Part shown: positions 4,122-36,381 of the stretch, in pieces
Layout: each line of letters starts with the position of its first letter
How positions within the stretch are numbered: the stretch's first letter is position 1
Origin: a virus
DNA: 64,000 bases
Virus record (IMG/VR): IMGVR_UViG_3300044972_002389
Coordinates: 228,892 to 292,891 of that record
Reading direction: 5' to 3' (one strand)
Translations under genes and position numbers: made by a program
Notes under the pieces: model-generated
Seen by the model: only the letters and a program-made list of their open reading frames with translations
The model's database searches: none
Told to the model about the DNA's origin: nothing

Positions 4122-4133
4122 AGGATTACTGTT

Positions 4134-5443: not shown

Positions 5444-5446
5444 AAG

Positions 5447-6987: not shown

Positions 6988-7049
6988 TCTGTTGCTCCCT
7001 TTGATTTGAACTATACAAGGGCCTTTGTTTCTCTGCAATAAATAGATTT

Positions 7050-7277
7050 ATGAGAGCAATGGATTTAGATAGTGCTGGCTATTACAGCCCAGACCAAGAT
7101 CATTATACTATGCAAAATCAGTATGACCCGCGTCGACCCAAGATTACAATCGCACATTTAAATCAAATGAAAAGAATGCGTAGTGCCAAGAAATTGGAAA
7201 ATCTTGTGCGCAGAGATCTTTTGGGCCTGTTGTATGGCGCTCCCTCTGCTGAAGGCGGCGGAATGCCAGGCATGTAG
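7050..7277 (+). CDS. Hypothetical small basic protein upstream of the capsid genes
   Basis: 75 residues with possible starts at 7050 or 7059. The core HLNQMKRMRSAKKLENLVRRDLLGLLYGAP is a basic amphipathic helix; the end is Gly-rich. A late-promoter-like AATAAATA lies at 7037-7044, so close to the ATG that the leader would be very short. The position just before the prohead core, protease and scaffold genes is that of small prohead genes such as 67 in T4, but I do not recognise true homology. Function unknown. Confidence 0.55.
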   Translation: MRAMDLDSAGYYSPDQDHYTMQNQYDPRRPKITIAHLNQMKRMRSAKKLENLVRRDLLGLLYGAPSAEGGGMPGM

Positions 7278-7299
7278 TCTAAAATTGCCTTATTTTCCA

Positions 7300-7307
7300 T
7301 ATAAATC
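7300..7307 (+). promoter_or_regulatory. Possible T4-type late promoter (7/8 match)
   Basis: TATAAATC, one mismatch to the T4 late box TATAAATA. It lies about 65 bases before the ATG of the acidic core gene; a weaker TCTAAATA follows near 7328. Confidence 0.45.
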
Positions 7308-7373
7308 CAAGTTATTCTTCAACTCCTTCTAAATAAACACAGAGTCTATCAACTTTACCAAAGGAGACAAACT

Positions 7374-8735
7374 ATGGCTAATAGCAAGCTGTTGAAGGTA
7401 ATGGATTACCTTATCAACGAGCAAGAAGACAAGGCTCGTGACCTGTTGCACCAAATCTTCATTGAGAAGGCACGTGCAATTCACGAGGAAATGCTAAGTG
7501 ACGACGAGCATGAAATGGACAGGGACGAGGGCAGAAATCTCGGAGATGACATTGAATTTCACAAAGAAGAAATTGAGAATGAAGAGCATTATGGCGACGG
7601 CACAATGGAAGATGTTGACCTCGATGACGCGGTTGAAGATCTCACAGTAAGTGCTGGCGATGATGAAGATGCTGACGATGTTGATGTTGACGTGGAAGAC
7701 GATGACATAGACATGGACGCTGAAGACGACATGGACGATGAAGACGACATGGACGATGAAGAAATGGATGCTGATGAAGCTGAAATGGATGCAGACATGG
7801 ACCACGACGAGGAAGCTGAAGGCGAGCGTCTAAAAGACATTGAGCAAGCAATTGAAGAGTTGACTGCTGAATTTGAAGCTATGAAGGCTGAACTACATGG
7901 TGAACATGGTGATGCAGAGGGAGATAAAATGCCCCTGCAGGAAATGGCAGATTCGGGCACTACGCCTGGTGGTAAACAGTACAAAATTAGCGGCGATTTT
8001 GAAACCGTGACTGTTAATGGAACTTCTTACCCAATCCGCAAACTGAGTGGTCAAGGGGACAACCCCGACTACGTAATAGATGACATCCATATTGGTCAAA
8101 CATATCAGGACATGCCACACCCTGACGCGGATGAGGAAGACTATGAGGAAGAATATGAAGTCTGGACAGAAGCACCAGGACAAGCAGATAACACCCTACA
8201 CGTTGGTACGTGGGATGAGTGCTGGAACTTTTTAATTGATCAACTAGGAAGTGAAGACCATTCGCGTTTGAAAAGACGCCTACAGCGCGATGCTAGCGGT
8301 GGTGGCATGAGAGAAGGCTGGATGGACAACACTGACGACCTTGATGAAGACTATGATGATCTTGATGAAGCCATTGCCCTCGATACAGTTCATGTTGATC
8401 TCAAGAAAGTTGGCGAAGTTGGCTCAGGAAAGTTTTCTCGTAGTGATGTAAGCAAGCATAGCCCAGTGCCCAAAGGCGTTCAAAGCCCTGTTCCAGGTGC
8501 CAAGCCAGTTGTGACAGGCAAGGGATCAAAGGCTGATGGATATCATCTTCAATCTGCCCCCACAAGTGCCAGTATGAACTTGTCCAACCGTCGCAAGAAG
8601 GCTAGTGAAGACATGACTCATGTCAGCAAGGAAGGCAGCACAAAGGCCATGTTGAACAAAGATCGTTCAGAAGGTTTTGGCGCCGCCAACGTTCGCAGCC
8701 CACTGGGCAGCACCGGCACAACACCAAAGAAGTAA
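7374..8735 (+). CDS. Highly acidic putative prohead core protein (gp67/gp68-like)
   Basis: 453 residues, AAGGAG before the ATG. Residues 1-45 (LLKVMDYLINEQEDKARDLLHQIFIEKARAI) resemble the N-terminal helix of gp68-type core proteins. Residues 80-150 are an extreme Asp/Glu/Met tract (DDEDDMDDEEMDADEAEMD). Residues 150-175 form a coiled coil. The C-terminal third is basic and Ser/Gly-rich with many SPVPG-type linkers. It sits directly before the prohead protease and scaffold, the T4 order for core genes 67 and 68. T4 core proteins are cut by gp21 during maturation; it is plausible that the acidic tract is processed similarly. It is much longer than T4 gp67/68 (80-141 residues). A perfect hairpin follows. 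Confidence 0.65.
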   Translation: MANSKLLKVMDYLINEQEDKARDLLHQIFIEKARAIHEEMLSDDEHEMDRDEGRNLGDDIEFHKEEIENEEHYGDGTMEDVDLDDAVEDLTVSAGDDEDADDVDVDVEDDDIDMDAEDDMDDEDDMDDEEMDADEAEMDADMDHDEEAEGERLKDIEQAIEELTAEFEAMKAELHGEHGDAEGDKMPLQEMADSGTTPGGKQYKISGDFETVTVNGTSYPIRKLSGQGDNPDYVIDDIHIGQTYQDMPHPDADEEDYEEEYEVWTEAPGQADNTLHVGTWDECWNFLIDQLGSEDHSRLKRRLQRDASGGGMREGWMDNTDDLDEDYDDLDEAIALDTVHVDLKKVGEVGSGKFSRSDVSKHSPVPKGVQSPVPGAKPVVTGKGSKADGYHLQSAPTSASMNLSNRRKKASEDMTHVSKEGSTKAMLNKDRSEGFGAANVRSPLGSTGTTPKK

Positions 8736-8751
8736 TTTATCAACAAGAAAT

Positions 8752-8780
8752 TATGCTGTAACTCAAAAGGTTACAGCATA
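8752..8780 (+). terminator. Hairpin terminator after the core protein gene
   Basis: A perfect 11-bp stem (TATGCTGTAAC / GTTACAGCATA) with a 7-base loop, followed by a short T-containing tail (GTTCTTTG). Confidence 0.7.
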
Positions 8781-8837
8781 GTTCTTTGAAAAAACACTGG
8801 TTTCTTACTGGAAATCCAGCTGTTTCAGATAGTGTTG

Positions 8838-8844
8838 TTAAATA
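8838..8844 (+). promoter_or_regulatory. Possible late promoter for the protease-scaffold-capsid operon
   Basis: TTAAATA, matching the 3' part of the T4 late box, 31 bases before the gene 21 ATG and just downstream of the hairpin at 8752-8780. Confidence 0.4.
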
Positions 8845-8875
8845 TTGTTACTACGAAACTAAACAGGAAACAAAA

Positions 8876-9508
8876 ATGGTCTCAATTCTGCAAGAACACT
8901 TGCATTTTGATGATGCACAAATGAAGGTTGTTACCGAAGCCATAGAAGGTGGTCATAAAAACCTCTTCATGGAAGGAATCTTCATTCAAGGCGGAATCAA
9001 AAATCATAACGGAAGAGTCTATCCTGTAGACGAGATTCGCAAAGCCGTAGAGCTAGTAAATTCAAGCATATCCAAAGACAATGGGGTACCTGGTGAACTG
9101 GATCATCCACAAGAGCTTCAAATTCATCTAGATCGCGTAAGCCACAGCATTCAAAAAATGTGGATAGACGGTCCCAATGGCCTTGGTAAGTTGAAAGTAT
9201 TACCAACACCTTGCGGTCAAATTGCAAAAACCTTGCTTGAGAGTGGTGTAAAACTTGGCGTTTCATCACGTGGCTCAGGCAATGTCGATCCCTATGGGAA
9301 CGTTTCAGATTTTGAAATGTTAACAGTCGACATAGTGGCCAAACCTTCAGCCCCAAGTGCATATCCTGTGCCTGTATATGAGGCTATGTATCACAGAAGG
9401 CTCGGCAGCAACATCAGAGACTTGGCAGAAAGCGTGCGTCATGATGAGAAGGCTCAAAAGCATCTCACCAAGACCCTGCTCCGCTGGGTTAACGAGTTGA
9501 AGATTTAA
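8876..9508 (+). CDS. 21: Prohead core protease gp21
   Basis: 210 residues; the ATG at 8876 (MVSILQEHL) has CAGGAAAC upstream, and the longer frame from 8786 lacks one. T4 prohead protease family (S80): catalytic His77 in ELDHP, Ser130/131 in GVSSRG, and Asp152 in VDIVAKPSAP. It sits inside the assembling head, cleaves the core and capsid proteins, and destroys itself, allowing expansion and DNA packaging. It is followed by scaffold gene 22 and capsid gene 23 in the T4 order. Confidence 0.94.
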   Translation: MVSILQEHLHFDDAQMKVVTEAIEGGHKNLFMEGIFIQGGIKNHNGRVYPVDEIRKAVELVNSSISKDNGVPGELDHPQELQIHLDRVSHSIQKMWIDGPNGLGKLKVLPTPCGQIAKTLLESGVKLGVSSRGSGNVDPYGNVSDFEMLTVDIVAKPSAPSAYPVPVYEAMYHRRLGSNIRDLAESVRHDEKAQKHLTKTLLRWVNELKI

Positions 9509-9526
9509 CAAGGAGACGCCAGTCCT

Positions 9527-10732
9527 ATGGAAAAACAACTACAAGAGCTCCTGGAGAACGAAGTGCTTGGCCCCGAAGCCAAAACTGCCCTTCAGGAAGC
9601 ATTCACAAACAAGCTCAAAGAAGCTGAGACAAAGCTCCAAGAAAGTTATGCTCATCGCTTCGAGCACGAGCGCGGATTGCTTGTGGAAGCCATGGACAAG
9701 ATGTTGAACGATGTTGTGAGAAAAGAACTCAGTGAGTTCTCTCAAGACAAGCAAGCAGTAGCAGCCAAAAAGGTGCAGCTCACCCAGGCTGTTAGTGAGG
9801 CAAAATCCACTTACAACAAAAAGCTGGCCCAACATGTGAAAATGATGGAACAGTTTATGCAAGGTGAAATCCGCAAGGAAATTACTGAGTTCAAAGCCGA
9901 CAGAAAACAGTTGGCCGTTCAACGCAAATCTATGGCTACCGAACTGCTGGAGAGTAAGAAAAACGCTCAAGCAGCCCTCGAAGCTAAAATTGGCAAACTG
10001 GAGAACTTTGTTCTTCAGCAATTGTCAGAAGAAATTTCCGAATTTCAATCTGACAAAAAGGCTCTGGTAGAGCAACGAGTCAAACTGGCAAGCGAAGCAA
10101 AACGCAAGCTGGATGAAACCCAACGCTCATTTGTCAACAGAGCAACCACTGTGGTTGATAAAACCTTGAACGAGGTCATCAAGCGCGAGTTGGTGCAATG
10201 GAGAGACGATATCAAAATTGCTCGTGAGAACAATTTTGGTCGTAAAATATTCGAAGCTGTGGCCGCTGAATTTATGACCAGCTACCTTGCAGAAGGTACT
10301 CAAGTCAAAAAGCTCAGTGATCAACTCAAGACGCAACAAGCAGCACTAGCTGAGGCACAAAAGGCAATTCATGAGAAAGAAAATCTCTTGGAAAGCGTTC
10401 GTGCACAAAGCCGTGCAGCACAAGCTCAGCTTCAAAGAGCCCAAGTGCTCAATGAGCTGTTGAACCCCTTGGCCAGAGACAAGAAAAAGATCATGGAAAG
10501 CCTTTTGGAAGATGTGAAAACCACACACCTCAAAGAAAGCTATCACAGATACTTGCCCGCAGTGTTGAACCAAAATGCACCAGCCGCACCAAAGGCTGTG
10601 CAAGCAAAACCCAGCAGAGCTGTGGCACATTCCGGAGACCGCGTAAGTCTCGTGGAAACACAACAAAACCCAACTGAAGATCGCGATCTTCAAAATATCT
10701 TGTATTTGGCCGGTGTCGCCAAAGCACAATAA
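9527..10732 (+). CDS. 22: Prohead scaffold (major core) protein gp22
   Basis: 401 residues, AAGGAG upstream. Almost entirely helical coiled coil rich in Glu, Lys, Ala and Gln (MEKQLQELLENEVLGPEAKTAL...). The C-terminal region ends RDLQNILYLAGVAKAQ, a conserved ending for gp22 in cyanophages. It forms the internal scaffold around which gp23 assembles and is degraded by gp21. It is longer than T4 gp22 (269 residues). Gene order 21-22-23 supports the call. Confidence 0.92.
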   Translation: MEKQLQELLENEVLGPEAKTALQEAFTNKLKEAETKLQESYAHRFEHERGLLVEAMDKMLNDVVRKELSEFSQDKQAVAAKKVQLTQAVSEAKSTYNKKLAQHVKMMEQFMQGEIRKEITEFKADRKQLAVQRKSMATELLESKKNAQAALEAKIGKLENFVLQQLSEEISEFQSDKKALVEQRVKLASEAKRKLDETQRSFVNRATTVVDKTLNEVIKRELVQWRDDIKIARENNFGRKIFEAVAAEFMTSYLAEGTQVKKLSDQLKTQQAALAEAQKAIHEKENLLESVRAQSRAAQAQLQRAQVLNELLNPLARDKKKIMESLLEDVKTTHLKESYHRYLPAVLNQNAPAAPKAVQAKPSRAVAHSGDRVSLVETQQNPTEDRDLQNILYLAGVAKAQ

Positions 10733-12966: not shown

Positions 12967-12994
12967 AAAAGCCTGGGATTTCTCCCAGGCTTTT
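12967..12994 (-). terminator. Terminator of the second homing endonuclease
   Basis: A 12-bp perfect stem (AAAAGCCTGGGA / TCCCAGGCTTTT) with a TTTC loop. The minus-strand gene stop touches its edge. The T-run on both sides could terminate either strand. Confidence 0.8.
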
Positions 12995-14613
12995 CATGTT
13001 TTATACCATATCCATTTAGCGTTGCCACAATCCCAAATCCTTTCCAAGCCTGCCCCTTGGGCCATGGAATATTCAGTGCAGCCTTCTGTAACAAGATGGG
13101 GATACTTTTTGATCATGGACTGTTTGTTGAATGTAAATCTATGATATCGTTTGAAGTCAGGATTTTTGAGACTGAAATACCAATAATTGGGTGGGGTATC
13201 TTCAAAGCGCCTAAATCCCAGATGTGCAAGATATAACCCTTGGCCCCATCTGAGGTCAGCATAACTGAGCACACTTTGGGGCTGATATGTTTTCTCAAAA
13301 TGATTAAACAATCTTGCAGCAATACCAGCATAATGCTGCCCATCTGTGCTGAATCGCACCATTTCCCACTGCCAAACTTCTTTGGGCTTTGTGAACTTTC
13401 GACCTTGACTGAATGTCATCACAGCAACCAATTTTTGATTTAGGTCATATGCACCCACAGCAACTTCTGCTTTGGCTGCGCCACTTATATGATGGGTGTT
13501 CAAGAAATCTGTTGCTTGACTACTGGAGATGCAAGAGAGTCTGAGGCATCGGGCCCCGGGCCCTCGTTTATTGATGCCCAATATTTGTGATAGCCTAGAT
13601 TTCACAATTTGTGATCTATTGAGCCATTCATCCTCAAATATGGTTATCAATTTGATGCCTTGGTCTCGACAGGCAATATATTTGTTCTTGTGATACCCTC
13701 GTTGTTTGTGACGCTGACTATGCCAATATAAGCCACAATATTCTATGCCAAGGTGCTGACTCTCACTATAGAGGTCAATTTCCTGCTTGTTAAGCAAGGT
13801 TGTTCGAGTTTTCTCAAAATCAACAAAACCTTGAGCTTTCAACCAGCTGTTCAACTGTAGTTCAGCTGATATTTCATTTGGCTGGCGGATTCCCCATATT
13901 TTGAGGTATTTGAGTATTGTGGTCTCACAAACAGCTAGTTCTTGAGCCATATTTGATATATTTGATGTTTCAAACATGGTTTTGAGCGCAACAGGATCAT
14001 TAAGCACTTGGTTTGCAAGAGAACTATAATTTTTCTGAGCTGGGTTTGAGACACCGTATTTGTTATTAAGAGTTTCTGTTGTTTTGGCGATCACATCCTG
14101 CCTCTTGCTATGCCAATCTACGCCATACTGCTCTAGGCATTGTTGTCTTATCCTTTCCACATTTTTAGGATCCTTCATGGGATTGTTCACTAATCGATGA
14201 GTATCTACGTGGGGAAGGCAGAACGCATTTGACACCCCATATGTATTTTCAAGTGTTTGTTGTGCTTTAGCTTTGGATTTAGGATTTGCTAGCCCTACAC
14301 CGCCGTTCTCTTTGAGAACCTTAACACGACGTTCTGTTGCAGCAGCCTTGGCATGCACACACTCTTTTGAACAGAATTCTCTGTGACCCTTGGTTATGCT
14401 AATAAAGCTTACTGATTTTCCACATACACATGCAGGGGGCTGGCTAAGCTGTTTAACATAGCAATAGATCTTCTCGCTCAATAGATCACAGTACTGGCTT
14501 GCACTCCAAGAATTCACAGTGGTCAACAAGTTCACGTCATGTTTGACTCTAGTTGCAATACCATCTATCTTGTGATTGCTTAGCAGATTTTGGATCTTTT
14601 CAAGTGGTGTCAT
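12994..14613 (-). CDS. Large Hef/EDxHD-type homing endonuclease
   Basis: 539 residues. Residues 55-85 have a Cys cluster (CVCGKSVS...REFCSKEC) like a zinc ribbon, followed by repeated YGVSN-type motifs (NTYGVSNAF, NKYGVSNPA) and a helix-turn-helix-like block. Residues 245-330 hold the Vsr-like nuclease: NKQEIDLYSESQHLGIEYCG, then LYWHS and ITIFEDEW. The C-terminal about 200 residues are shared with the gene at 34738-36381, ending RIWDCGNAKWIW versus RIWDCGSSKWIW. It is antisense and tandem with the endonuclease at 12038; together they form a mobile cluster after gene 23. Confidence 0.82.
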   Translation of the reverse strand: MTPLEKIQNLLSNHKIDGIATRVKHDVNLLTTVNSWSASQYCDLLSEKIYCYVKQLSQPPACVCGKSVSFISITKGHREFCSKECVHAKAAATERRVKVLKENGGVGLANPKSKAKAQQTLENTYGVSNAFCLPHVDTHRLVNNPMKDPKNVERIRQQCLEQYGVDWHSKRQDVIAKTTETLNNKYGVSNPAQKNYSSLANQVLNDPVALKTMFETSNISNMAQELAVCETTILKYLKIWGIRQPNEISAELQLNSWLKAQGFVDFEKTRTTLLNKQEIDLYSESQHLGIEYCGLYWHSQRHKQRGYHKNKYIACRDQGIKLITIFEDEWLNRSQIVKSRLSQILGINKRGPGARCLRLSCISSSQATDFLNTHHISGAAKAEVAVGAYDLNQKLVAVMTFSQGRKFTKPKEVWQWEMVRFSTDGQHYAGIAARLFNHFEKTYQPQSVLSYADLRWGQGLYLAHLGFRRFEDTPPNYWYFSLKNPDFKRYHRFTFNKQSMIKKYPHLVTEGCTEYSMAQGAGLERIWDCGNAKWIWYKT

Positions 14614-14749: not shown

Positions 14750-15784
14750 ATGGAACGGCTACCCGACCTCAAAACAGAAGTTTTGCCATTCAATGGTTTG
14801 AATCTACACATAAACAAAGCTGACTTCTGGAGCAGCAAGCTACGTCTCCAAAATGACAATTGGTTGTTCAAGAAATGGTGGAAAAGCTGGAAGTCACTGG
14901 GACTGGAAGGACCAGGACTGCTGTTGGATATTGGTGCAAACTATGGTGTTGCCAGCTGGGAATTTTTGAGTCAAAGCTTCTGTAGTCAAACAATTATGTT
15001 TGAACCCATTCAAGAAAATTGTGAATGCATAATGCGTAGCTATGCAGGCAAGGAAAGCATTTATCAAATCCACAACCAGGCAGTGAGTCAACAAAGTGGA
15101 GAAATCAGCTTTCAATACAATCCCAAACAAACTGGCACCAGCCATATTGTGGGATCAGAGGGCGGAAACCGCACTGTGAAAACTGTTTGCATTGACAGCC
15201 TTGATCTTCCCAAAATCAAGCTCATGAAAATTGATGTTGAAGGTCATGAGCTTGATGTTCTCAAAGGTGCGGCTGCCCGTATTCAACAAGACCAACCTTG
15301 GATATTCTTTGAATGCAATCACAATAATGCAGTGGAACTGCAAAAAGTCACTAATGTAATCAATTGGTTCTTGGAACATGATTATGTTCCTATTAGTAGT
15401 AGCTATCATCAAATTTTGACTGAAACTGATATCAGGGCCAGCAGCCTCGCAAGCAACAGCATCCTGGCAGGTGTGAACGATCTATTGGCTGTGCCTCGAG
15501 CCCTGCTGCCCAGCAACAGTGAGAAAGTCCATCTCTACAAAGTGTATCAGGAGCAATTGACAAAATCTGGAAAAGTCAGCTTTTGGAAAGATAGGGTGCC
15601 TTGGTTTCAGTTGAACGCTAGGGAAATGGCCAAGCTAGACAAACTGCCGGAGGAGGGAGAAACTTTGTCTCCCAGCCGCAGTAACAAAGTTTATACGCGA
15701 GAGGGAGATTTGGTTGTTTTTACAGAAAGGTTTTTTCAACAGTTTCCAGAATATCAAAACGCATTGAGTGATATCTTTACATGA
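14750..15784 (+). CDS. FkbM-family methyltransferase
   Basis: 344 residues; CAGGA before the ATG. SAM-binding motif LLLDIGANYGVASWEF at about residues 62-77, then MFEPIQENCE, a loop with IKLMKIDVEGHELDVLKGA, and WIFFECN, all diagnostic of FkbM methyltransferases, which typically O-methylate sugars or small molecules. The last 90 residues lie outside the family core and are unique here. It is flanked by mobile endonucleases on one side and a terminator on the other, so it appears to be a single transcription unit. Substrate unknown; modification of a surface glycan or virion sugar is possible. Confidence 0.85.
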   Translation: MERLPDLKTEVLPFNGLNLHINKADFWSSKLRLQNDNWLFKKWWKSWKSLGLEGPGLLLDIGANYGVASWEFLSQSFCSQTIMFEPIQENCECIMRSYAGKESIYQIHNQAVSQQSGEISFQYNPKQTGTSHIVGSEGGNRTVKTVCIDSLDLPKIKLMKIDVEGHELDVLKGAAARIQQDQPWIFFECNHNNAVELQKVTNVINWFLEHDYVPISSSYHQILTETDIRASSLASNSILAGVNDLLAVPRALLPSNSEKVHLYKVYQEQLTKSGKVSFWKDRVPWFQLNAREMAKLDKLPEEGETLSPSRSNKVYTREGDLVVFTERFFQQFPEYQNALSDIFT

Positions 15785-21092: not shown

Positions 21093-21172
21093 AAAACTTT
21101 AGAGCCTCATTGCATATTTGGAAAATCGTCGGCAAACTGAGATTACCAAAAGAAACTATGAAAGGAAACTTT

Positions 21173-22204
21173 ATGGGTTTGAAAAAATTGTTGATGGCTG
21201 CTGCGTTGATGGCAATGGGTGCTACTGGTGTAGTTGCGCAACCAATAAACGGTGCTGGTGCCACTTTTCCCAACCCGCTTTATCAAAAATGGGGAGAGGA
21301 AGCGAAGAAAACTGGTATTGCACTCAACTACCAAAGTGTGGGCAGCGGTGCTGGGCAAAACCAAATCCGGAACCGCACTGTGGATTTTGGGGCCAGTGAT
21401 GCTCCTATGAAACAGGAGGATTTGGAAAAAAACAACTTAGTGCAGTTTCCAACAGCTATGGGCAGTTTAGTTGCAGCAGTCCATGTGCCGGGTCTAGAGC
21501 GAGAGCAACTGAGACTCACTGGTCCAGTGTTGGCAGACATCTATCTAGGTAAGATCGTAAAGTGGAATGATCAACGCATTGTGGAACTGAATCCAACAAT
21601 TCGCTTGCCTAATTTGACTATTGCAGTGGTGTATCGCGCAGATGGCAGTGGAACAACCTTTGTTTGGGCCAGTTACCTATCGGCAGTGAGTGAGCAATGG
21701 CGCACCCAGGTAGGTACAGGCACCTCAGTTAAGTGGCCCACTGGCACTGGAGCACGAGGAAACGAGGGTGTTAGCGCCAGTGTGCGTCAGATCATGGGAG
21801 CCATTGGTTATGTGGAAAATGCCTATGCTCAGCAAGCTGGATTGGTTACCACGCAAATCCGCAACCGCGATGGACATTGGGTGAAGCCCACTCACAAGGC
21901 TTTTGAGGCTACAGCAGCATCTGCCAACTGGAACGTGCCTAACTTTGCTGTTGACCTCGTTGACCAGCCTGGCGCCAACAGTTGGCCTATTGTGAGTCCC
22001 ACCTACATTCTGTTGCCGCGTGATCCTCGCAACCCCACCAACAGCCTCACAGTGATGCGATTTTTTGACTGGGCTTACACACATGGCGACGAGATAGCTG
22101 AACGGTTGGATTATGTGCCTATACCAGCTGTAGTGAAGGCCAGAATTCGCCAAACCTGGGCAAGTGAGGTGAAAGCCCCTGACGGTAACCCCGTCTGGAA
22201 GTGA
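21173..22204 (+). CDS. pstS: Phosphate ABC transporter substrate-binding protein PstS
   Basis: 343 residues from the ATG at 21173, preceded by AAAGGAA; an ATG at 21158 is less well placed. Signal peptide at residues 1-23 (MGLKKLLMAAALMAMGATGVVA). Mature PstS motifs: INGAGATFPNPLYQKW, YQSVGSGAGQNQI, DFGASDAPM, IVKWNDQRI, YRADGSGTTFVWASYL and GNEGVSASVRQ. It is a full-length periplasmic phosphate-binding lobe pair. PstS feeds the host PstCAB transporter and is a well-known auxiliary metabolic gene in cyanophages, raising phosphate uptake for DNA synthesis. It is transcribed away from the neck operon and followed by a GC-rich hairpin. Confidence 0.95.
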   Translation: MGLKKLLMAAALMAMGATGVVAQPINGAGATFPNPLYQKWGEEAKKTGIALNYQSVGSGAGQNQIRNRTVDFGASDAPMKQEDLEKNNLVQFPTAMGSLVAAVHVPGLEREQLRLTGPVLADIYLGKIVKWNDQRIVELNPTIRLPNLTIAVVYRADGSGTTFVWASYLSAVSEQWRTQVGTGTSVKWPTGTGARGNEGVSASVRQIMGAIGYVENAYAQQAGLVTTQIRNRDGHWVKPTHKAFEATAASANWNVPNFAVDLVDQPGANSWPIVSPTYILLPRDPRNPTNSLTVMRFFDWAYTHGDEIAERLDYVPIPAVVKARIRQTWASEVKAPDGNPVWK

Positions 22205-22347: not shown

Positions 22348-22380
22348 TTGACACTGGGCCCAACTAGCTATATGTTGGGC
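22348..22380 (+). promoter_or_regulatory. Promoter with operator-like inverted repeat before the accessory island
   Basis: A perfect -35 TTGACA (22348-22353) with possible -10 boxes TATATG or TATGTT (15 or 17 bases away). The -10 region is flanked by an inverted repeat, GCCCAAC (22358-22364) and GTTGGGC (22374-22380). A palindrome around the -10 suggests a repressor or activator site. It drives the genes from 22404. Confidence 0.5.
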
Positions 22381-22403: not shown

Positions 22404-23339
22404 ATGGCTCGGTTGACGCGCACTGACACAAAGCTGCAAGAGATCTTGAACAGCCGTGGTGCACCCGACTTCAGCACCCTTGACTACACGGCCCCAGACT
22501 TCAATGTGAGGTATGGGCTTGCACTGAACTGGGTGCATCAGGCTGCTGAGCCGGAAGAGCTGATTCGCGAAGCGCAAGCGTATCTCACGCAGGTGGGCAG
22601 GCCCCACGATGCTGCTGTGGTCAAGAACGTTCCTTTTGGCACCCAGCAGACTATGGGTAAGATTGCTTACTGCCTCAATCGGGGAGCTCAGCTGAGCCCC
22701 AAGAGCTACACTTACATTGACAATGCGTTGCAGCAGGCCAAGCCCAACACTGACATTGGGATGGAAAACCTCACGCTCAGTGCCTCAGGCAAGCTGATTG
22801 AGGCATATGTGGCTTGCTATTCCCGGATTGACAACCTCAAAACCCTTGTGCTCAAGGGCAAGATGGAGCTCCGGGAGCTGGCTGTGGAAATTGAAAAGAT
22901 TATTACCAAATATGGTCATCCCAAGGTGCGAGTCCGCCTGCAGGAGCACTATGCTGAGGCGTTTGCTGAGGCACAGAGCGACAAGCTGATCCAGGACTGG
23001 CAGAAGCCGCTTAAGGCTATTGTGCGTGCACTTAACAGCAATGCGGAACCTGAGCAGGCTCGCCAGGACAAGGTTCTGCCCAAGGCGGTGAAGGCAGGCA
23101 AGGCGCCTGCACGCAAGGGCAAAGCTGTGAAGACGCAAGCCAAGGTTAAGGCTCCAGCAGCAGCCAAGCCCAGCAAGGACGCAGGAAAGCCCAGCGTTGC
23201 AGCCCAGGTGCGTGCGCTGATCCAAGACCACAAGGGCAAGGTAAATGAGGCACAGATGGTAGATGTGGTTGTCAAGGCCCTAGGCCTCACTACTGCACGC
23301 GGCAAGAGCGTGGTCAAAGCTTTCTGGGGCAAGGTGTAA
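22404..23339 (+). CDS. Hypothetical protein with basic linker and C-terminal helical module
   Basis: 311 residues, CAGGAG upstream. Three parts: an N-terminal 200-residue helical domain with no recognised family; a histone-H1-like Lys/Ala/Pro linker (about residues 225-260, APARKGKAVKTQAKVKAP); and a C-terminal about 48-residue module (VRALIQDHKGK...GLTTARGKSVVKAFWGKV). This module is similar to the C-terminus of the SprT-like protein at 49836-50555. The linker suggests binding to nucleic acid, and the module looks like a small winged-helix or SAP-like domain. First gene of the island; GC content is higher than in the structural regions. Confidence 0.7.
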   Translation: MARLTRTDTKLQEILNSRGAPDFSTLDYTAPDFNVRYGLALNWVHQAAEPEELIREAQAYLTQVGRPHDAAVVKNVPFGTQQTMGKIAYCLNRGAQLSPKSYTYIDNALQQAKPNTDIGMENLTLSASGKLIEAYVACYSRIDNLKTLVLKGKMELRELAVEIEKIITKYGHPKVRVRLQEHYAEAFAEAQSDKLIQDWQKPLKAIVRALNSNAEPEQARQDKVLPKAVKAGKAPARKGKAVKTQAKVKAPAAAKPSKDAGKPSVAAQVRALIQDHKGKVNEAQMVDVVVKALGLTTARGKSVVKAFWGKV

Positions 23340-23345
23340 CAGGCT

Positions 23346-23822
23346 TTGACTCAAGAAACGCATCTTGAATTTGCCTTGAAGTGGACTAAATGCTGGGCGG
23401 GCTGTTATCAAACTTGCCTGCCCAGCCAAGACGTGTTGGACACCATGTGTGAGGAGTTTGCCCAAGCCAACGCCAATAGTCCTTGGGTCCGGGTAGTTTT
23501 GGGTTGGATGTATGAAAAAAGTCAATGTGAAAATGACCAAGACCTATTCCTCTGGTGCGACAAGCTGGGACGAGTATTGACGGGACCATACTTTGTCAAA
23601 TATCGGGTTGACCCAGCCAGCCGAAATGAAATGATTGACGCCTCAGTTGGCAATCTTGGTATTCAAATCTGGTGCAGTTCCCTTGAGGATGCTGCGATAG
23701 TAGGGCTTGTGTATCCTGAGTGGATAGTAACCCAACGTGTTTTTCAGGCAGCCCAGATGCCAGACACCTTGCGCGGGATGGGCAGCCCGCCACTTATTTT
23801 TGGTAAGGAAATGCATCCATGA
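23346..23822 (+). CDS. Hypothetical protein
   Basis: 158 residues from a TTG at 23346 with AACAGG just before; no ATG is well placed. Several Trp and Cys residues (WTKCWAGCYQTCLPSQ) occur at the N-terminus; no metal-site spacing I can name. Overlaps the next gene by 4 bases (ATGA), so probably translated from the same mRNA. No family recognised. Confidence 0.55.
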   Translation: MTQETHLEFALKWTKCWAGCYQTCLPSQDVLDTMCEEFAQANANSPWVRVVLGWMYEKSQCENDQDLFLWCDKLGRVLTGPYFVKYRVDPASRNEMIDASVGNLGIQIWCSSLEDAAIVGLVYPEWIVTQRVFQAAQMPDTLRGMGSPPLIFGKEMHP

Positions 23823-24106
23823 TAGCTGATGGCATTTTAATTTTCTTGATGATTGGTGCAGGTATTTGGAGTGCCCGATTGAGCGTCAAGAGTGCAATTG
23901 AAAACAGCACTACGCCCAACGGCTGTATCCAGTATATGCTCCATGAGACTTATTTGGTAACAGGAATCCTGGTGCTGCTCTATGTCATAGGATGGGTTGA
24001 CATATTTGTGATGACAATGTTTATTGTTCGTACGGCTGAACTCTTGGTATATGATTATTCCAAGCTGATCCAAAACTACCACACGCTAAAAGAAGGGAAT
24101 AGCTGA
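23819..24106 (+). CDS. Small membrane protein
   Basis: 95 residues. Two or three hydrophobic segments: residues 3-18 (ADGILIFLMIGAGIWS) and 45-75 (YLVTGILVLLYVIGWVDIFVMTMFIV). No signal peptide cleavage site. Its stop overlaps the helicase start (TGATG). It could anchor something at the inner membrane or act as a lysis or exclusion factor, but nothing in the sequence decides this. Confidence 0.6.
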   Translation: MIADGILIFLMIGAGIWSARLSVKSAIENSTTPNGCIQYMLHETYLVTGILVLLYVIGWVDIFVMTMFIVRTAELLVYDYSKLIQNYHTLKEGNS

Positions 24107-25086
24107 TGGCTGGACAACCAGGACGTATGTTCTTATACGTGTGGAGTGAGAGCACTAATCCACACGAATGCAAATTTGGCGAACGTTGGGTCCTGCCAGA
24201 TGAAACTCCTGCAGACTCAGTTCGAGCTCGAGTGCGCGACAGCCTTGGCGTGCGGAAAGATCTCTTGCGAGCAGGCATTGTTACAGTTGATCATATTTGG
24301 GACGTAACTGACTACGCCCAGCGCGTGGGCCGCAGCCGTCAGCATGCAAGGATGGACGACTACGTTCGAACCTTTGTAGGGCATCGCAAAGGCACTACTG
24401 GTGAGATCCACATGCTCAGCAGTGCGGAACTGATTCTCAAGGTCAACCAACATCTTGCCAGTGTGAATCAAGCACTGCCTCAGGCAGGCTTGAGCACTAT
24501 GCAATACAGCATGTGCACACAAACCCTAGATGCCTTTCAAGCTGGGAAACATGTGGTGCTGGCTGAGCTGTGTGCTCGATTTGGCAAGACCATCTACAGC
24601 GGCGCAGTAGCTCGCGAGCTTGATGTGCCTTTGGTGATTGTAGCCAGTTACGTGAAAACAGTTTTCGCCAGCTTTGCCAAAGACCTCACCAGCTTTGAGC
24701 AGTGGGCACACTACCAACATGTGGACACACAGAGCGAAGGCTGGCAAGATCTTGTCTCAGGGGCATTGAAGAAAAAGAAACCTGTGGTATGCTACCTCAG
24801 TATGTGCAGCGGTGGTCAGCGCGAGGCCCGCATCAAATGGCTGTGTCAGAAGAGGGTAGACCGGCTGTTGATTGTCGATGAGGCTGACTATGGCAGCTAT
24901 CGACCTGGGCAGGCTGAACTGCTGAAGAAATATATTGGCAAGCGCGATAAGGTTCTCATTATGACCGGAACCAACGCTGACAGGGCCAGCAAGCTGTGGA
25001 AGATTGACACCATGCTGAGCGTGACCTATCCAGAACTGTTGATCCAGAAGCGTGCTAGTCAAGAGATGAATTCAGCCAATGCTTAA
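24106..25086 (+). CDS. SF2 helicase/restriction-type ATPase, N-terminal half
   Basis: 326 residues. Residues 8-100 form a separate N-terminal domain (FLYVWSESTNPHECKFGERW, then DDYVRTFVG and TTGE) loosely like T5orf172/GIY-YIG-type nuclease domains. Then SF2 motifs: Q-like FQAGKHVVLAELCARFGKT (motif I, Lys161), LLIVDEADYG (motif II, residues 255-263) and LIMTGTN (motif III). The ELCxRFGKT form of motif I is typical of restriction-type helicases. It stops after RecA domain 1; domain 2 is encoded by the next gene, which overlaps by 8 bases in another frame. Probable partner of the methyltransferases downstream. Confidence 0.75.
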   Translation: MAGQPGRMFLYVWSESTNPHECKFGERWVLPDETPADSVRARVRDSLGVRKDLLRAGIVTVDHIWDVTDYAQRVGRSRQHARMDDYVRTFVGHRKGTTGEIHMLSSAELILKVNQHLASVNQALPQAGLSTMQYSMCTQTLDAFQAGKHVVLAELCARFGKTIYSGAVARELDVPLVIVASYVKTVFASFAKDLTSFEQWAHYQHVDTQSEGWQDLVSGALKKKKPVVCYLSMCSGGQREARIKWLCQKRVDRLLIVDEADYGSYRPGQAELLKKYIGKRDKVLIMTGTNADRASKLWKIDTMLSVTYPELLIQKRASQEMNSANA

Positions 25087-26362
25087 GCATTTCAAGATTG
25101 AAACCTCTCGAGACCTTCTTGTGTCTGACATGAGGCTGTTTCAGCTGGACCTCAGCGAGCCTGTTATGCAGAGTGTAGCTGCTGGCGAGTTTGATGACGA
25201 AGACATGAAGCTGCTGCCCAGTTGGAGCAAGTTTGCAGCGCACCCGCAAAAAGCCAAAGGTTTTTTTGTGCGGATGCTGGAGACAGTGTTCCTAGGCAAG
25301 CACGGTGTTGATCCTGCCAATGTGGATCTACAAACCCAAAACTGGTTTGGTCGCGAGCGTCAAAAAACAGCCATGATGTTTGTGCCAGGAAGCACCCGAG
25401 TGAAGGATGGCCAGCTGGCTGCCATTGGTGTGATTGCGCAAAGTGCTCTGCCAGCTTGGCGAGTGATTGTGTTGGGTGGCAACATCCTCATTGATGGACA
25501 AAAAGTGCGCAATGCTAATGCTGAGCGAAAGGTAAGAGAGCAAATGGAACAAGCTGTCAAGCTAAATCAAAGTGTGCTGATCATCAGCAGCCTTATGGCA
25601 CAGCGCAGCTTCAGTATTCCTGAGATTACGGAGTTGTATCTGGCTTACGACAGCGGCGAGGTGGGTGCAACTATTCAAAAAATGAGCCGCGTTCTTACCC
25701 CAGGCAAAGATCCCAAGAAGGTGGGCAAGATCATCAGTCTTAGCTTTGATCCCAATAGGGACGACAAGTTTGACAGCATGCTCTTGGAAACCACTTTCAA
25801 CATTACAAAACAGAACCCCAAGCGGAGTGCTGCCGATGTCATGAGTGAAGTGCTGAGCACTATGGACATCTGGAAGGGCAGTGCACATGCCAGTGTACAA
25901 GTCAACAAAGACAGATACCTTACAGAGGTTCTTGCCCGGAAAAGTGTAAGCCGAGTTATTGGCAGCAGTGCTGATCTTACCCAACTGGACAAAGATGCCA
26001 TCAAAGAGCTAGCAACTGGAGTAATTGCCTACCAACGTGCCAATCCTGTTGCATCAGTGCCCAAAGGCAAAACAAAAATCTTGCCCAAAAAACCAAAGTC
26101 CTTCAAAGACAAAGACACTGCTGTTGAAGAGATGCGCAGGGCCCGTGAACGTATTACAGCCATTGTAGAGAACATTGACGTAATTAGGGATGGCAGTGGG
26201 TGTGATCAACTACAGCAAGCTCTTGCAGCTATTGCGGATGATCCTGATACACAAGAGAGTATTGCAGAAGAGTTTGGCGTGCGTTGGGAAGTGGTGCAGC
26301 GGTTGTTTGATCAAGGGATCATCAGGCGTGAATGGCTTGAACTGATTTACGATAGGGTTTAA
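25079..26362 (+). CDS. SF2 helicase/restriction-type ATPase, C-terminal half
   Basis: 427 residues in the +1 frame relative to the N-terminal half. It contains the second RecA-like domain: WRVIVLGGNI, QSVLIISSLMAQRSFSIPEIT (motif V region) and GATIQKMSRVLTPG (motif VI with the arginine finger in QKMSR). The remaining about 200 residues are helical with a Lys-rich stretch (KGKTKILPKKPKSFKDK) and end with a helix-turn-helix-like EEFGVRWEVVQRLF. The overlap ATGCTTAA could allow reinitiation, so two subunits may assemble into one helicase; a frameshifted single gene is the alternative. Followed after 3 bases by a methyltransferase. Confidence 0.72.
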   Translation: MLKHFKIETSRDLLVSDMRLFQLDLSEPVMQSVAAGEFDDEDMKLLPSWSKFAAHPQKAKGFFVRMLETVFLGKHGVDPANVDLQTQNWFGRERQKTAMMFVPGSTRVKDGQLAAIGVIAQSALPAWRVIVLGGNILIDGQKVRNANAERKVREQMEQAVKLNQSVLIISSLMAQRSFSIPEITELYLAYDSGEVGATIQKMSRVLTPGKDPKKVGKIISLSFDPNRDDKFDSMLLETTFNITKQNPKRSAADVMSEVLSTMDIWKGSAHASVQVNKDRYLTEVLARKSVSRVIGSSADLTQLDKDAIKELATGVIAYQRANPVASVPKGKTKILPKKPKSFKDKDTAVEEMRRARERITAIVENIDVIRDGSGCDQLQQALAAIADDPDTQESIAEEFGVRWEVVQRLFDQGIIRREWLELIYDRV

Positions 26363-26365
26363 ATT

Positions 26366-27541
26366 ATGCTGAGTCGTCTCAAATTTGAAATCTCACCTCT
26401 TGTCAAAGAGATGTTGGATCAATTTCCCAGTTCTGTTTGGTCTAGTTCATCTACAACCTTCCTAGACCCTGCTATGGGCGGAGGCCAATTTTTGGTTGAA
26501 ATCGAACGCCGCTTGCGTTCTGCAGGACATTCGGATGAGAATATTTCTTCTCGAGTGTTTGGTTGTGAGAAGAACAAACTTCGTGTAAATTATGCTAAGA
26601 ACAACAAGAAACTTGTGTCAAAAAATCTACATATCAGTAATTTTTTGAACCAGGACTGGGGTGATATGAAATTTGATGTGATTATTGGAAATCCACCTTA
26701 TCAAAGTCCGGACGCCAAAAAGGTCAAGCTGTGGTTTGATATTTTACAAAAAAGTATGCATTTAGTGCAGCCAGAGGGAGTAGTAGCGTTTGTTACTCCC
26801 AACAGTTGGCTTAATCAAGATACAACTGTAGCTGAAAAAACAAGAGAGCTTTTCAAAGGATGCACTTTTATACATATAGCACCAAATGTTTCAAAATATT
26901 TTGAAGTGGGAGAACGTATCTGCAGTTTCGTTGTGAAAAAGAGCACAACAGGTTCTTACTCAGGAGAAAAAATATTTGAAAATGAGATGCAGCGACAAAA
27001 AAACGATGTTTGTCTCAAACTCAAAAATAGCAATTATGTGAAGGCTAAACAACTTCTCCAACGGGTGTATCACAGTGGTCATCCTAGAGAGTTTGATACT
27101 TATGCAGAAAACCCTACAGAGAAAATTGCACACCCAGTAGTTCACAGTAGTGTTGAGACTTGGTATACATCATCTGATGTGTCTGCATTTCAAGGACATA
27201 ATGTGATTATTAACAACTCTGGATATTATTTCCATGAATCCTATCCAGACAAATACATCTATTATTCAACTTCCAAAGTTGCTGGTGGCAACGCCTTTCA
27301 ATTGACGTTCCCTTCTAAAAAAGAGGCGTTGAATGCACTATCTTATCTAACAAGCAAGCTCTATAGATTTTTTGTTGATACTACAAAAAGTAGTGGATTT
27401 AACGCAACTGCATTGTATCAACTTCCGTTGTTGGATAGCAAAGTCTTATGGACAGATCAGTCAGTTTATGACGCCTTTGAGTTATCTAAAGAAGATATTA
27501 TACTTGTTGAGAGCAACACTAGGCAAAAGATAGATCAATGA
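26366..27541 (+). CDS. N6-adenine DNA methyltransferase, copy A
   Basis: 391 residues. Motif I TFLDPAMGGGQFLVEIERR (residues 31-49) and catalytic motif IV NPPY in FDVIIGNPPYQ. The rest is a variable C-terminal region probably holding the target recognition domain. The N-terminal 115 residues are close to copy B (28060), while the C-terminal halves differ strongly. Family: gamma-type amino-methyltransferases of Eco57I/type I style. It sits directly after the helicase halves and overlaps the next gene by 4 bases. It modifies phage or host DNA at an unknown site; with the helicase it may form a restriction-modification-like unit. Confidence 0.85.
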   Translation: MLSRLKFEISPLVKEMLDQFPSSVWSSSSTTFLDPAMGGGQFLVEIERRLRSAGHSDENISSRVFGCEKNKLRVNYAKNNKKLVSKNLHISNFLNQDWGDMKFDVIIGNPPYQSPDAKKVKLWFDILQKSMHLVQPEGVVAFVTPNSWLNQDTTVAEKTRELFKGCTFIHIAPNVSKYFEVGERICSFVVKKSTTGSYSGEKIFENEMQRQKNDVCLKLKNSNYVKAKQLLQRVYHSGHPREFDTYAENPTEKIAHPVVHSSVETWYTSSDVSAFQGHNVIINNSGYYFHESYPDKYIYYSTSKVAGGNAFQLTFPSKKEALNALSYLTSKLYRFFVDTTKSSGFNATALYQLPLLDSKVLWTDQSVYDAFELSKEDIILVESNTRQKIDQ

Positions 27542-27996
27542 GTGATATTGTAGATGATCTTGATACTTCTCTTCTGTCCAAAGAAGAGAAAAAGAAACAA
27601 TTTGGTGAAGTATTCACACCACCTGCATTGGTAAATGAAATATTGGATCAATTGCCAAAAGAAATCTGGCAGGATCCAACGAAAACATGGCTAGACAACA
27701 GTTGTGGTGAAGGTGCATTTTTGATTGAGGTCAAGAGACGATTGATGGCAGGACTCTCAGAGTGGCAACCAAACGCTAAAAAACGAGAACAGCACATCTT
27801 GGAGAATCAACTCTATGGTGTTGAGTTGCAGCGTGATAATTGGGAAAAGTGCAGACAAAAATTGGGCCTTACTCCCACAGGTAATGATGGCAACATTGTG
27901 TGCGCCAATGGGCTGGAATACAACTACACGTTTTTGAAAGATGACACGGGTGGGTATGTAGTTGCAGACAATACCTTTGACTCACTTTTTCAATAA
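27538..27996 (+). CDS. Truncated methyltransferase-like protein
   Basis: 152 residues. It has FGEVFTPPALVNEILDQLP (motif X-like) and motif I TWLDNSCGEGAFLIEVKRR, then LYGVELQRDNWEKC, but ends before any NPPY catalytic motif. It is therefore probably inactive alone: either a regulatory or partner fragment, or a decaying third methyltransferase. FGEVFTPP lies upstream of motif I, an element missing from copies A and B, so it could supply motif X in trans. It overlaps copy A by 4 bases. Confidence 0.65.
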   Translation: MSDIVDDLDTSLLSKEEKKKQFGEVFTPPALVNEILDQLPKEIWQDPTKTWLDNSCGEGAFLIEVKRRLMAGLSEWQPNAKKREQHILENQLYGVELQRDNWEKCRQKLGLTPTGNDGNIVCANGLEYNYTFLKDDTGGYVVADNTFDSLFQ

Positions 27997-28059
27997 TATC
28001 TTGACGCAATCTATTTCTATGTAATATTGCCTTCAGTAACCCCAGCTAAAGGTTTGCCA

Positions 28060-29187
28060 ATGCTAAGTAGATTGAAGTTTGAGATAGCACCACTGGTCAA
28101 CGAAGTGCTAGATATGTTGCCAGAAGATGTCTGGACAAGCGACTCAACAACTTTCCTAGACCCAGCTATGGGTGGTGGCCAATTTTTAGTTGAAATTGAA
28201 CGCAGGCTGAAGAATGCTGGTCATTCCAACCAAAATATTGCCAAGAGGGTGTTTGGTTGTGAGAAGAATAAACTTCGTGTAAATTATGCAAAGAACAATA
28301 AAAAGCTGGTATCAGAAAACTTACAGATCTCGGATTTTATCAGCTATGACTGGGGTAATATGAAGTTTGATGTAGTTGTAGGTAACCCACCCTACCAAAA
28401 CACACATGGTGCCAAGAGGTGGCCAATTTGGCATGAATTTGTTGCCAAATCTGCTGAGCTCAGCAATGAGCATGTGCTCCTAGTGACTCCCAACAGTTGG
28501 ATTGGTGCAGGCAAAGGTGAAGTCAAAGACACTATTTGGAAGTCTATTACCAAATGCAGCTTGGATGTAGACAAATACTTCAATGTGGGATCTACTTTCA
28601 GTTGGTTCAGTCTTGATGTGAAAAATCACAGCAGCAGTTTTGAAGTTAAAACACCACAAGGTGTTTTTTCTGTAGACAAGACAACGGAATGGCTGCCTGC
28701 TAAGATCACCACTCAAGCACTTGGTATCAACAACAAAGTGTTTTCCCAGCCTTCCTTTTCCTTCAAACGCGGTGAATGTCACACCAGCAACAAAGAAAAG
28801 TTCAGTGACAAGGGCTATGAAGTGTTTCATACACATGCACAAACATTGTATGTGAAAGAAGAACCTGCAAACTATAAGTCAACTAAAGTTGCATTTACTT
28901 TGAGTGGCGACATTCGTGCCAAAATTGGCAAAAATTTTGGCACCAGCCAAGCAGTTGCATATCTGGAAATTCCCTATAAACAAAAATCAACAGCGGAATT
29001 TGTCTTCAACAGCCAACTTTTTCGATGGCTGCTCCAAAACAATAAATGGAGCGGTTGGAACAGCTTGGATGTAATCAAGCGTCTGCCGCAAGTAGACCTT
29101 TCTGTATCGTGGGATGATCAAAAACTATTTGATCATTTTCAACTTACTCCAGATGAAATTTCGGAAATTGTAATTCAAAATCAATAA
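28060..29187 (+). CDS. N6-adenine DNA methyltransferase, copy B
   Basis: 375 residues from the ATG at 28060 (MLSRLKFEIAPLV, same start as copy A), AAAGG upstream; the longer frame from 28027 has no support. Motif I TFLDPAMGGGQFLVEIERR and motif IV NPPY in FDVVVGNPPYQ. After residue 120 it diverges from copy A (WIGAGKGEVKDTIWKS, FSWFSLDVKN), implying a different target recognition domain. The pair looks like a duplication followed by replacement or rapid change of specificity. Last gene of the accessory island; the gene 13 late promoter follows. Confidence 0.85.
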   Translation: MLSRLKFEIAPLVNEVLDMLPEDVWTSDSTTFLDPAMGGGQFLVEIERRLKNAGHSNQNIAKRVFGCEKNKLRVNYAKNNKKLVSENLQISDFISYDWGNMKFDVVVGNPPYQNTHGAKRWPIWHEFVAKSAELSNEHVLLVTPNSWIGAGKGEVKDTIWKSITKCSLDVDKYFNVGSTFSWFSLDVKNHSSSFEVKTPQGVFSVDKTTEWLPAKITTQALGINNKVFSQPSFSFKRGECHTSNKEKFSDKGYEVFHTHAQTLYVKEEPANYKSTKVAFTLSGDIRAKIGKNFGTSQAVAYLEIPYKQKSTAEFVFNSQLFRWLLQNNKWSGWNSLDVIKRLPQVDLSVSWDDQKLFDHFQLTPDEISEIVIQNQ

Positions 29188-34727: not shown

Positions 34728-34752
34728 AAACCGGAGCTCACTGCTCCGGTTT
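34728..34752. terminator. Bidirectional terminator after gene 18
   Basis: A 10-bp stem (AAACCGGAGC / GCTCCGGTTT) with a TCACT loop and a T5 run on the plus side. The opposing endonuclease ends inside it. Confidence 0.82.
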
Positions 34753-36381
34753 TTCATTAAGCCATATCCATTTACTGCTACCACAATCCCAAATCCTGTT
34801 CCAACCTTGCGCCTTGCGATTTTCCCATTCTGTCAAGGCAGGATCATCCTGCGAGTTTTTGCGCAAGCTAAATCTGTGCAGTCGTGTAACATCAGGCCCT
34901 TTGAAATACCAATAATTTGGCGTGCCTAAATTTATGCAAGTAAATCCCAATTGTTCATATACAGTTCCTTGATTCCATCTTAAATCACAGTAACTTATAA
35001 TTTGTTTTGGATTGTAATTGGTTACAAAATATTTGAATAATTTTCCCGCCCCGCCCATAACTTGCGTTTTTGTGATACTGCACAGCCTACTCAATTCCCA
35101 GACATCGGCTCCTGTGTTCCGAGAACCTTTGCTGATATTGGGTTGACTAAAGGTTGCCACTTGGATCAATTGTTCCCCATAATACAATCCCAAGCAAATC
35201 TTGCTAGCTCCACTGCCTTGAATATGATTTTGCGTGCAAAAGTCACGGGCAATTTTGGCATCAATGGGTTTCACAACACATTTTCTTGCAGCAATTTTGT
35301 TGTGACATTTACCTAGTAAGTGTTGTAGCCGACTTTTTACTATGTCTTGTTTGGTTAACCATTCATCTTCAAAAACAGTAATCAAGGATATTCCTTGTGC
35401 AGCACATAATTCTTTTTTGTTTTTGTGATAATTTTTATCTTTCCCCTGTAGTTCACTATGCCAATATAGACCGCAATATTCCACTGCAAGGTTCCTGTGT
35501 GGAATCAGTATATCCAGTTCCAAGGGAAAAATAGTTGATCGGTTACCACTTAAGACGGTTTCATGTGGCAAAACGGATCGTATCCAGAACAGCAACTCAA
35601 GTTCAGCATTGGACTTGACGGGAATTGGTCGGCAAACAGGGCAAATGTCTTTCCGCCACTTGGAAATAGTGAAATATTGTTTTGTAATGGAGAATTGATT
35701 GTTACATGCAATACATTTAACAAATACATTTTGACCTTCCACAGACTCACACAATAAATTTGCATCGGAAATTGCTTGTAACATCTTATCATGGCTCAAC
35801 ATTGATTTTTTCAATGCAGACATGCGGCTGCTTGCACTGATCTTGTTTTTGGTTGTTTGTGAGTGTTTTTTGCCACGCATATGACTCCCAAAATCATAAC
35901 CTTGCTCGTGCAATGTTTGTTTGGCTTTTGCTGCTCGTTGTTGCATCAATTCTGGATTCTGATGTGCGTAATCTTGCACTCCTTGGCGGATCTGATTCCT
36001 AGTAGCAGGGCTCAATATGGCCCCTTTTCTGGGATGAGTATCATTCTGCTGCCATTTGACAGTTCGCGCTGCAACAGCTTTGCGTAGATTTTCAAGATGG
36101 TCGGGATCTGTAACTTTCTTGCCTTTGTTTGACGGAATTTGACCTTCCCGCTTTTCACTCATTTTTTGTAAGCTGGCTTGCGCATGTTTCTTACCAAACA
36201 TGCCGTTTTTTTCGCCGCTGCGCGCTAAACTACGTTCTTTTTTGTAGTCTGCACAAGCTAAGCTATCACGCCCAAATTTCTGTCGGTATTGTTCACTACT
36301 TATTTGATGAGAGAATTTCAAATGAGTGCTGCTGATAATCTTGTCAAATATTTTTTCACATAACTGACACGTTATTGTCAT
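34738..36381 (-). CDS. Large Hef/EDxHD-type homing endonuclease
   Basis: 547 residues. Zinc finger at residues 4-27 (CQLCEKIF...STHLKFSH), a NUMOD3-like region (GKKHAQASLQKMSEKREGQ, GKKHSQTTKNKISASS), and a second Cys cluster at 218-250 (CIACNNQF...CPVC). The Vsr-like nuclease follows: FPLELDILIPHRNLAVEYCG, then LYWHSE and ITVFEDEW. Its C-terminal 200 residues are homologous to the gene at 12994-14613 (SYCDLRWNQG, GTPNYWYFKGPD, RIWDCGSSKWIW). It lies antisense downstream of the tail sheath with its stop in the terminator hairpin, the same arrangement as after gene 23. Confidence 0.83.
   Translation of the reverse strand: MTITCQLCEKIFDKIISSTHLKFSHQISSEQYRQKFGRDSLACADYKKERSLARSGEKNGMFGKKHAQASLQKMSEKREGQIPSNKGKKVTDPDHLENLRKAVAARTVKWQQNDTHPRKGAILSPATRNQIRQGVQDYAHQNPELMQQRAAKAKQTLHEQGYDFGSHMRGKKHSQTTKNKISASSRMSALKKSMLSHDKMLQAISDANLLCESVEGQNVFVKCIACNNQFSITKQYFTISKWRKDICPVCRPIPVKSNAELELLFWIRSVLPHETVLSGNRSTIFPLELDILIPHRNLAVEYCGLYWHSELQGKDKNYHKNKKELCAAQGISLITVFEDEWLTKQDIVKSRLQHLLGKCHNKIAARKCVVKPIDAKIARDFCTQNHIQGSGASKICLGLYYGEQLIQVATFSQPNISKGSRNTGADVWELSRLCSITKTQVMGGAGKLFKYFVTNYNPKQIISYCDLRWNQGTVYEQLGFTCINLGTPNYWYFKGPDVTRLHRFSLRKNSQDDPALTEWENRKAQGWNRIWDCGSSKWIWLNEKPEQ

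Follow-up and report, generated by a model that had tools for sequence, protein, structure and literature searches.

A split restriction-type motor with exchangeable methyltransferases in a T4-like phage, and a small SAM-binding subunit that may tether them to the replication clamp

Restriction enzymes of type ISP are single chains with an Mrr-type nuclease (PMC4666363). In phage T4, gp43, gp55 and gp33 bind the gp45 replication clamp through similar hydrophobic-acidic C-termini, which are interchangeable (PMC2988020; PMC7892883), and eukaryotic DNMT1 is a methyltransferase directed to the clamp PCNA (PMC4575159). In this study we focus on a five-gene island within a 64,000-nucleotide stretch of viral DNA (hereafter the window), which corresponds to positions 228892-292891 of the T4-like, 328,603-base (328.6 kb) virus record IMGVR_UViG_3300044972_002389. 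We give an even chance to the proposal that the island encodes a split modification system, of several specificities and descended from ISP/type IIG enzymes, and that its S-adenosylmethionine (SAM) subunit tethers methyltransferases to the replication clamp. Its genes, in window coordinates, are the following.

24106-25086, plus strand: helN, 326 amino acids (aa); an N-terminal domain (about residues 1-130) followed by the RecA1 domain of a superfamily 2 (SF2) motor.
25079-26362, plus strand: helC, 427 aa; RecA2 and C-terminal region of the motor begun by helN, with a start inside helN.
26366-27541, plus strand: M1, 391 aa; predicted N6-adenine methyltransferase with motif I (DPAMGGGQF), motif IV (NPPY) and a variable C-terminal target-recognition part.
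27538-27996, plus strand: Ms, 152 aa; motif X (FTP) and motif I (DNSCGEGAF), no motif IV, C-terminal NTFDSLFQ.
28027-29187, plus strand: M2, 386 aa (375 aa if translation begins at the ATG at 28060); second predicted N6-adenine methyltransferase.

An earlier note, made from the sequence alone, had described a split helicase and methyltransferase-like genes at 24106-29187, between pstS and a gene-13-like gene; the five open reading frames (ORFs) are indeed collinear there, and the start of Ms overlaps the end of M1 by ATGA. M2 probably starts at ATG 28060, the start common to its relatives, rather than at TTG 28027. The note took the two overlapping genes for a restriction-type SF2 ATPase and proposed structure prediction as a check. 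Both the sequence motifs (Walker A ARFGKT, DEAD and MTGT in helN) and the predicted structure agree with that assignment. The motor was modelled with AlphaFold2 on the fused homologue of locus L014 (64% and 60% identical to helN and helC, respectively; loci and regions used for comparison bear L numbers) at a predicted local distance difference test score of 80, and the PDB entries matched with Foldseek are SF2 motors, among them EcoR124I HsdR, the ISP enzyme LlaBIII (4xqk) and RadD. The helicase profile gave no real match when run against the PDB, and two genome-collection scans for a cellular origin of the motor returned nothing convincing. M1 and M2, correctly read as full-length N6-adenine methyltransferases, match Eco57I/N6_Mtase (E 1e-10 to 1e-13); both combine motif I, the NPPY of motif IV and a methyltransferase fold, and the model of M1 matches CamA, M.BseCI and M.TaqI.

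Ms had been taken for a truncated methyltransferase, which does not hold: it is a conserved, single-copy small subunit (PHROG 4376, annotated 'unknown'; T4-GC 34 in P-SSM2) that matches the front half of N6_Mtase (E 6.5e-9). An alignment scan of viral contigs found 448 relatives, of which 80 were kept, giving 49 non-redundant Ms and 44 non-redundant M neighbours. Motifs X and I are present in all 49 Ms and the catalytic motif IV in none (0/49). Conversely, motif IV is found in 42 of the 44 M neighbours and intact motif I is absent from 23 of these 42, a few of the 23 being cut at contig ends or split; motif X, which sits on Ms, is not recognisable in M. In some M genes, namely PSSM2_036 ('MKFTLAIGNPPY') and ACG-2014f gp191, the reading frame opens precisely at motif IV. 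In the model cyanophage P-SSM2 (L038, 3801-4761), the former is overlapped by an Ms with motifs X and I (PSSM2_037), and the pair is an apparent split methyltransferase. With motifs X and I on Ms and motif IV on M, the partition is most simply explained if Ms provides the cofactor half in trans, within a putative Ms-M complex. In phage S-SKS1, the gene immediately before Ms is SWZG_00215 (L212, 3641-5020); its 459-aa product has a GIY-YIG-like N-terminal part (FYIGQT) and matches Eco57I weakly.

The C-terminal peptide of Ms (VADNTFDSLFQ) resembles that of the DNA polymerase gp43 of the same phage (NNETFDSMFSF), whose PHROG match extends to within two residues of the protein end; the C-terminal 150 aa of this gp43 had no match in the PDB. 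Among the 341 ORFs of at least 60 aa in the window, Ms scores 24 for similarity to the gp43 peptide, with the next best at 15 or less, and it is the sole carrier of a narrower tail motif. A motif framed on gp43 tails occurs in 28 of the 49 Ms, whereas only 9 of the 823 remaining ORFs in these loci have it. Moreover, the Ms and gp43 tails vary together by lineage: GLEAFF and TLESFF in S-CAM7, GLEGFF and SLESFF in ACG-2014f, GLEMFM and NLELFF in Bellamy, TWNQLFEI and TFQSLFEF in L018 (permutation p=0.03 for ten pairs, uncorrected for kinship). These similarities suggest that the tail of Ms could bind a clamp. Two other tails were considered. The fused helicase of L086 (3612-5852) ends in EIDNLFI, which is clamp-peptide-like and no more than suggestive; the Ms of L086 itself has no such tail, and homologues of the helicase end in VDSPF. 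The helN tail KKLDFLFN of L084, L085 and L087 was discounted, because the gene is split at another point there and the peptide falls within RecA1.

The methyltransferase genes vary in number and in their C-terminal parts. Loci contain no full M gene (L011-L013), one, two (the window and L005), three (L008 and L010) or five in tandem (L035). Compared within the close relatives of the window and within the L035 array, the first 112 residues of M are 71-96% identical, and the C-terminal parts fall into two classes of identity, 14-41% and 70-94%. In the window, M2 and M1 are 79% identical over residues 1-112 and 20% in the C-terminal part; the latter part of M2 is 75% identical to that of the second M of L005 and L008. 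In L003, where the flanking genes are about 99% identical to those of the window, a single M carries the C-terminal part of the third M of L008 (70%). Target-recognition parts are, on these sequence comparisons, evidently exchanged between phages. The L035 array (3311-9817 of IMGVR_UViG_3300025139_000012) consists of five tandem methyltransferase genes followed by one Ms and has the form of a specificity array, with N-terminal parts 92-96% identical (91-94% at the DNA level) and C-terminal parts 14-41% identical.

Scans of viral sequences revealed 21 loci with a helN match and 15 with a helC match, and in Synechococcus phage S-CAM7 the gene order is the same as in the window. The two motor genes are separate ORFs in most loci, and close relatives share the overlap ATGCTTAA. 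They form one ORF of 745-777 aa in L014, L017, L020 and L034; in LR756508, helN, helC and an Eco57I methyltransferase are joined in one 1255-aa ORF, and the cultured Synechococcus phage MA01 has one 1074-aa ORF with ResIII and Eco57I domains, followed by Ms. Because such fused versions occur in other phages, the island is the split form of a motor-methyltransferase protein, and since the split and the gene order both recur in many relatives, neither is due to chance or sequencing error.

In the sister islands L086, L109, L084, L093 and L078, a T5orf172 (GIY-YIG) nuclease domain occupies the position of the helN front. In L086 this domain matches T5orf172 (E 0.0098) and MUG113 (E 0.0056) in Pfam, both below the curated cut-off, and the profile of the five sister-island sequences matches T5orf172 in hhalign with a probability of 96% (E 1e-9). 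Three bacterial frames (L171-L173; 1351-1361 aa) begin with a T5orf172 domain; a match of the helN profile comes after it (E 7e-5 to 3e-3) and, in two of the three, one of the helC profile (below 1e-4). The first 130 residues of helN are themselves conserved (Y, K-F-G-E/D, DDx[IV]R and E/D-[IV]-H) and fold, in the L014 model, as strand-strand-helix-strand-helices. From position, topology and the sister islands we infer a nuclease-like front domain in helN; cutting of foreign DNA by the island would then be plausible, and is the most conjectural of its activities.

In the mechanism that we propose, HelN and HelC would assemble into one SF2 DNA translocase of ISP-like type, fronted by a domain that probably is, or once was, a nuclease. 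M1 and M2 would be alternative subunits for catalysis and target recognition, methylating adenine in different motifs, and Ms would be their shared small subunit, giving motif X and a SAM site and no catalytic motif. Through its tail, Ms would bind a gp45-type clamp and so bring the methyltransferases to newly copied phage DNA, and the phage genome would be methylated at several motifs during its synthesis. As its main benefit, this methylation may shield phage DNA from host restriction and from the nuclease-motor of the island itself or of a rival phage. The earlier note had offered both defence against competing phages and protection of phage DNA; of the two, the evidence agrees better with protection through methylation. 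The clamp-binding-like tail and the swapping of specificities are additions to what that note had seen.

Several observations weigh against this mechanism. The gp45 and the clamp loader of this phage were not found with Pfam, PHROGs, PDB, hhalign or P-SSM2 gp44. The strict tail motif is missing from about 40% of Ms, near variants being present in some of these; the tail of the P-SSM2 Ms is weak, and the motif was framed after Ms had been seen. One of the two patterns used to search for Ms contained motif I, which favoured the recovery of that motif. The M1 and M2 of the window both keep an intact motif I; therefore Ms need not be the sole SAM site here and could be a partner. Loci L011, L012 and L013 have helN, helC and Ms with no full M in the fetched stretch, which also argues against a simple restriction system, unless M is elsewhere in those genomes. 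Finally, the front domain of helN in the window clade does not match T5orf172 significantly (hhalign probability below 7%, wrong register), and a direct T5orf172 assignment was dropped. As a side observation, a 252-aa gene downstream of gp43 in this phage (L045, 4721-5479) is a clamp candidate by its place only; it belongs to PHROG 12062 (function unknown) and has no match in PDB or Pfam.

The strongest rival, which we nonetheless hold to be unlikely, is a phage restriction-modification system in which HelN-HelC cuts unmethylated DNA of competitors or of the host, M1 and M2 protect, Ms is only a structural partner or a relic and its tail is incidental. The ISP/IIG-like fused relatives, the HsdR/LlaBIII fold of the motor and the specificity swapping, as in restriction systems, all speak for it, as does the T5orf172 nuclease domain of the sister islands. 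Against restriction-modification, the window clade shows a degenerate set of nuclease residues when compared with T5orf172, and there are carriers with no detected M. Moreover, Ms is the most widespread part of the island, occurring also where no relative of helN or helC was detected nearby, and keeps its motifs X and I everywhere.

A modification-only, anti-restriction island, with a dead front domain in helN, a motor that just moves the methyltransferases and no link to the clamp, is in our view unlikely too, and a shade more so. It would accord with several methyltransferases per motor, up to the five of L035, and with the loss of the T5orf172 H and EWF signature from the front domain of the window clade. 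However, the residues of this front domain (Y, K-F-G, DDx[IV]R) are kept down to about 41% overall identity, and the resemblance of the Ms tail to a clamp peptide is far above background.

Improbable, in turn, is that Ms is a gp33-like factor of late transcription or replication, derived from a methyltransferase half, that binds clamp and SAM and does not serve M1 and M2. In its favour, gp33 and gp55 typically bear clamp tails, and many marine cyanophage loci have Ms with no detected M or helicase neighbour; yet Ms adjoins helicase or M genes in every helicase locus detected in the Ms scan, overlaps M1 in the window, and has a motif set that complements that of M. A decaying restriction-modification remnant, suggested at first sight by the split and short genes, is very improbable, as no frame is interrupted and relatives with as little as 40% identity still conserve them all, with the split junction and the Ms length kept, and a decayed or truncated Ms was rejected given the conservation of its family.

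The island is preceded by a pstS-like ORF (21110-22204) and by three co-directional ORFs on the plus strand (22404-24106) of 311 aa (with a Lys/Ala-rich C-terminal part), 158 aa and 95 aa (membrane-like), which close relatives keep at the same place ahead of helN. A consensus scan placed a possible promoter in front of this gene run:

22348-22376, plus strand: possible sigma-70-type promoter, TTGACA-17-TATGTT, 10/12 matches, preceding the co-directional genes that include the island.

The scan is weak, with 20 sites found against 12 expected from shuffles. To the right lie a gp13-type adaptor (phrog_211, 4e-29), a dNMP kinase and a tail-sheath-like ORF at 31014. Adjoining the tail-sheath-like gene, a minus-strand gene at 34738-36381 encodes a protein that resembles homing endonucleases (NUMOD3, HNH-type PHROGs) and contains a Mom DNA-modification domain (Pfam PF25680, E 3.5e-8). 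A second homing-endonuclease-like gene, at 12994-14613 on the minus strand (DUF7487, weak MTES_1575 nuclease match), adjoins a plus-strand FkbM-type methyltransferase gene at 14750-15784 (PF05050, E 8e-18).

It is possible, and by our estimate somewhat short of an even prospect, that many T4-like phages, including marine cyanophages, carry a replication-coupled methylation hub made of a clamp-hooked SAM half, exchangeable catalytic and target-recognition halves and an ISP-like motor. If true, this would account for PHROG 4376, an 'unknown' gene that is very common in phages, show how a phage could mark its DNA at the speed of copying, and mean that methylation specificity can be changed through exchange of one subunit. 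The open-access papers searched contained no clamp-linked methyltransferase subunit or tail in phages, and the tether and the shared SAM subunit stand a fair chance of being new principles in these viruses. As versions of the island are present in cultured Synechococcus phages (MA01, S-CAM7, Bellamy, ACG-2014f and S-SKS1), the proposal is directly testable.

Among known systems, type ISP enzymes and T5orf172-type IIG enzymes come nearest to the island. It shares with type ISP enzymes (LlaGI, LlaBIII) the order of nuclease, SF2 motor, adenine methyltransferase and target recognition. The likeness to type I/ISP seen in the earlier note stands for this anatomy, given the fused 1255- and 1074-aa relatives and the T5orf172 domain of sister islands, and fails for membership. 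The island is not a member of type ISP, though its layout is ISP-like, because it is split, has another type of nuclease and includes a SAM subunit that acts in trans: at least three chains are encoded in the window and are fused only in distant relatives, no Mrr nuclease match was found in helN, whose front domain is T5orf172-like in position and topology, the M are interchangeable, and the extra subunit has a clamp-type tail. No BREX partner protein was found among eight island and neighbour proteins, which gave weak generic PglX/methyltransferase matches only. Type IIG enzymes with T5orf172, helicase and methyltransferase (PADLOC PDLC03626; the bacterial frames above) show colinear weak helN and helC profile matches, and helN has a weak type IIG match in PADLOC (6.6e-7); they are, however, one bacterial polypeptide, whereas the phage set has several genes, several M and a separate Ms. 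CamA, M.BseCI and M.TaqI share the fold and NPPY motif of M1 and M2, but are complete stand-alone enzymes with motif X, which the island carries on Ms. With the T4-type clamp tails (gp43, gp55, gp33 and DNA ligase) Ms has in common a hydrophobic-acidic peptide at the extreme C-terminus, TFDS[ML]F in both Ms and its own gp43. The island would finally be a phage counterpart, with combinatorial specificity, of DNMT1-PCNA coupling: DNMT1 is likewise a methyltransferase recruited to the replication clamp (PMC4575159), but it is an unrelated enzyme that modifies cytosine rather than adenine and has its tether within the enzyme instead of on a separate subunit.

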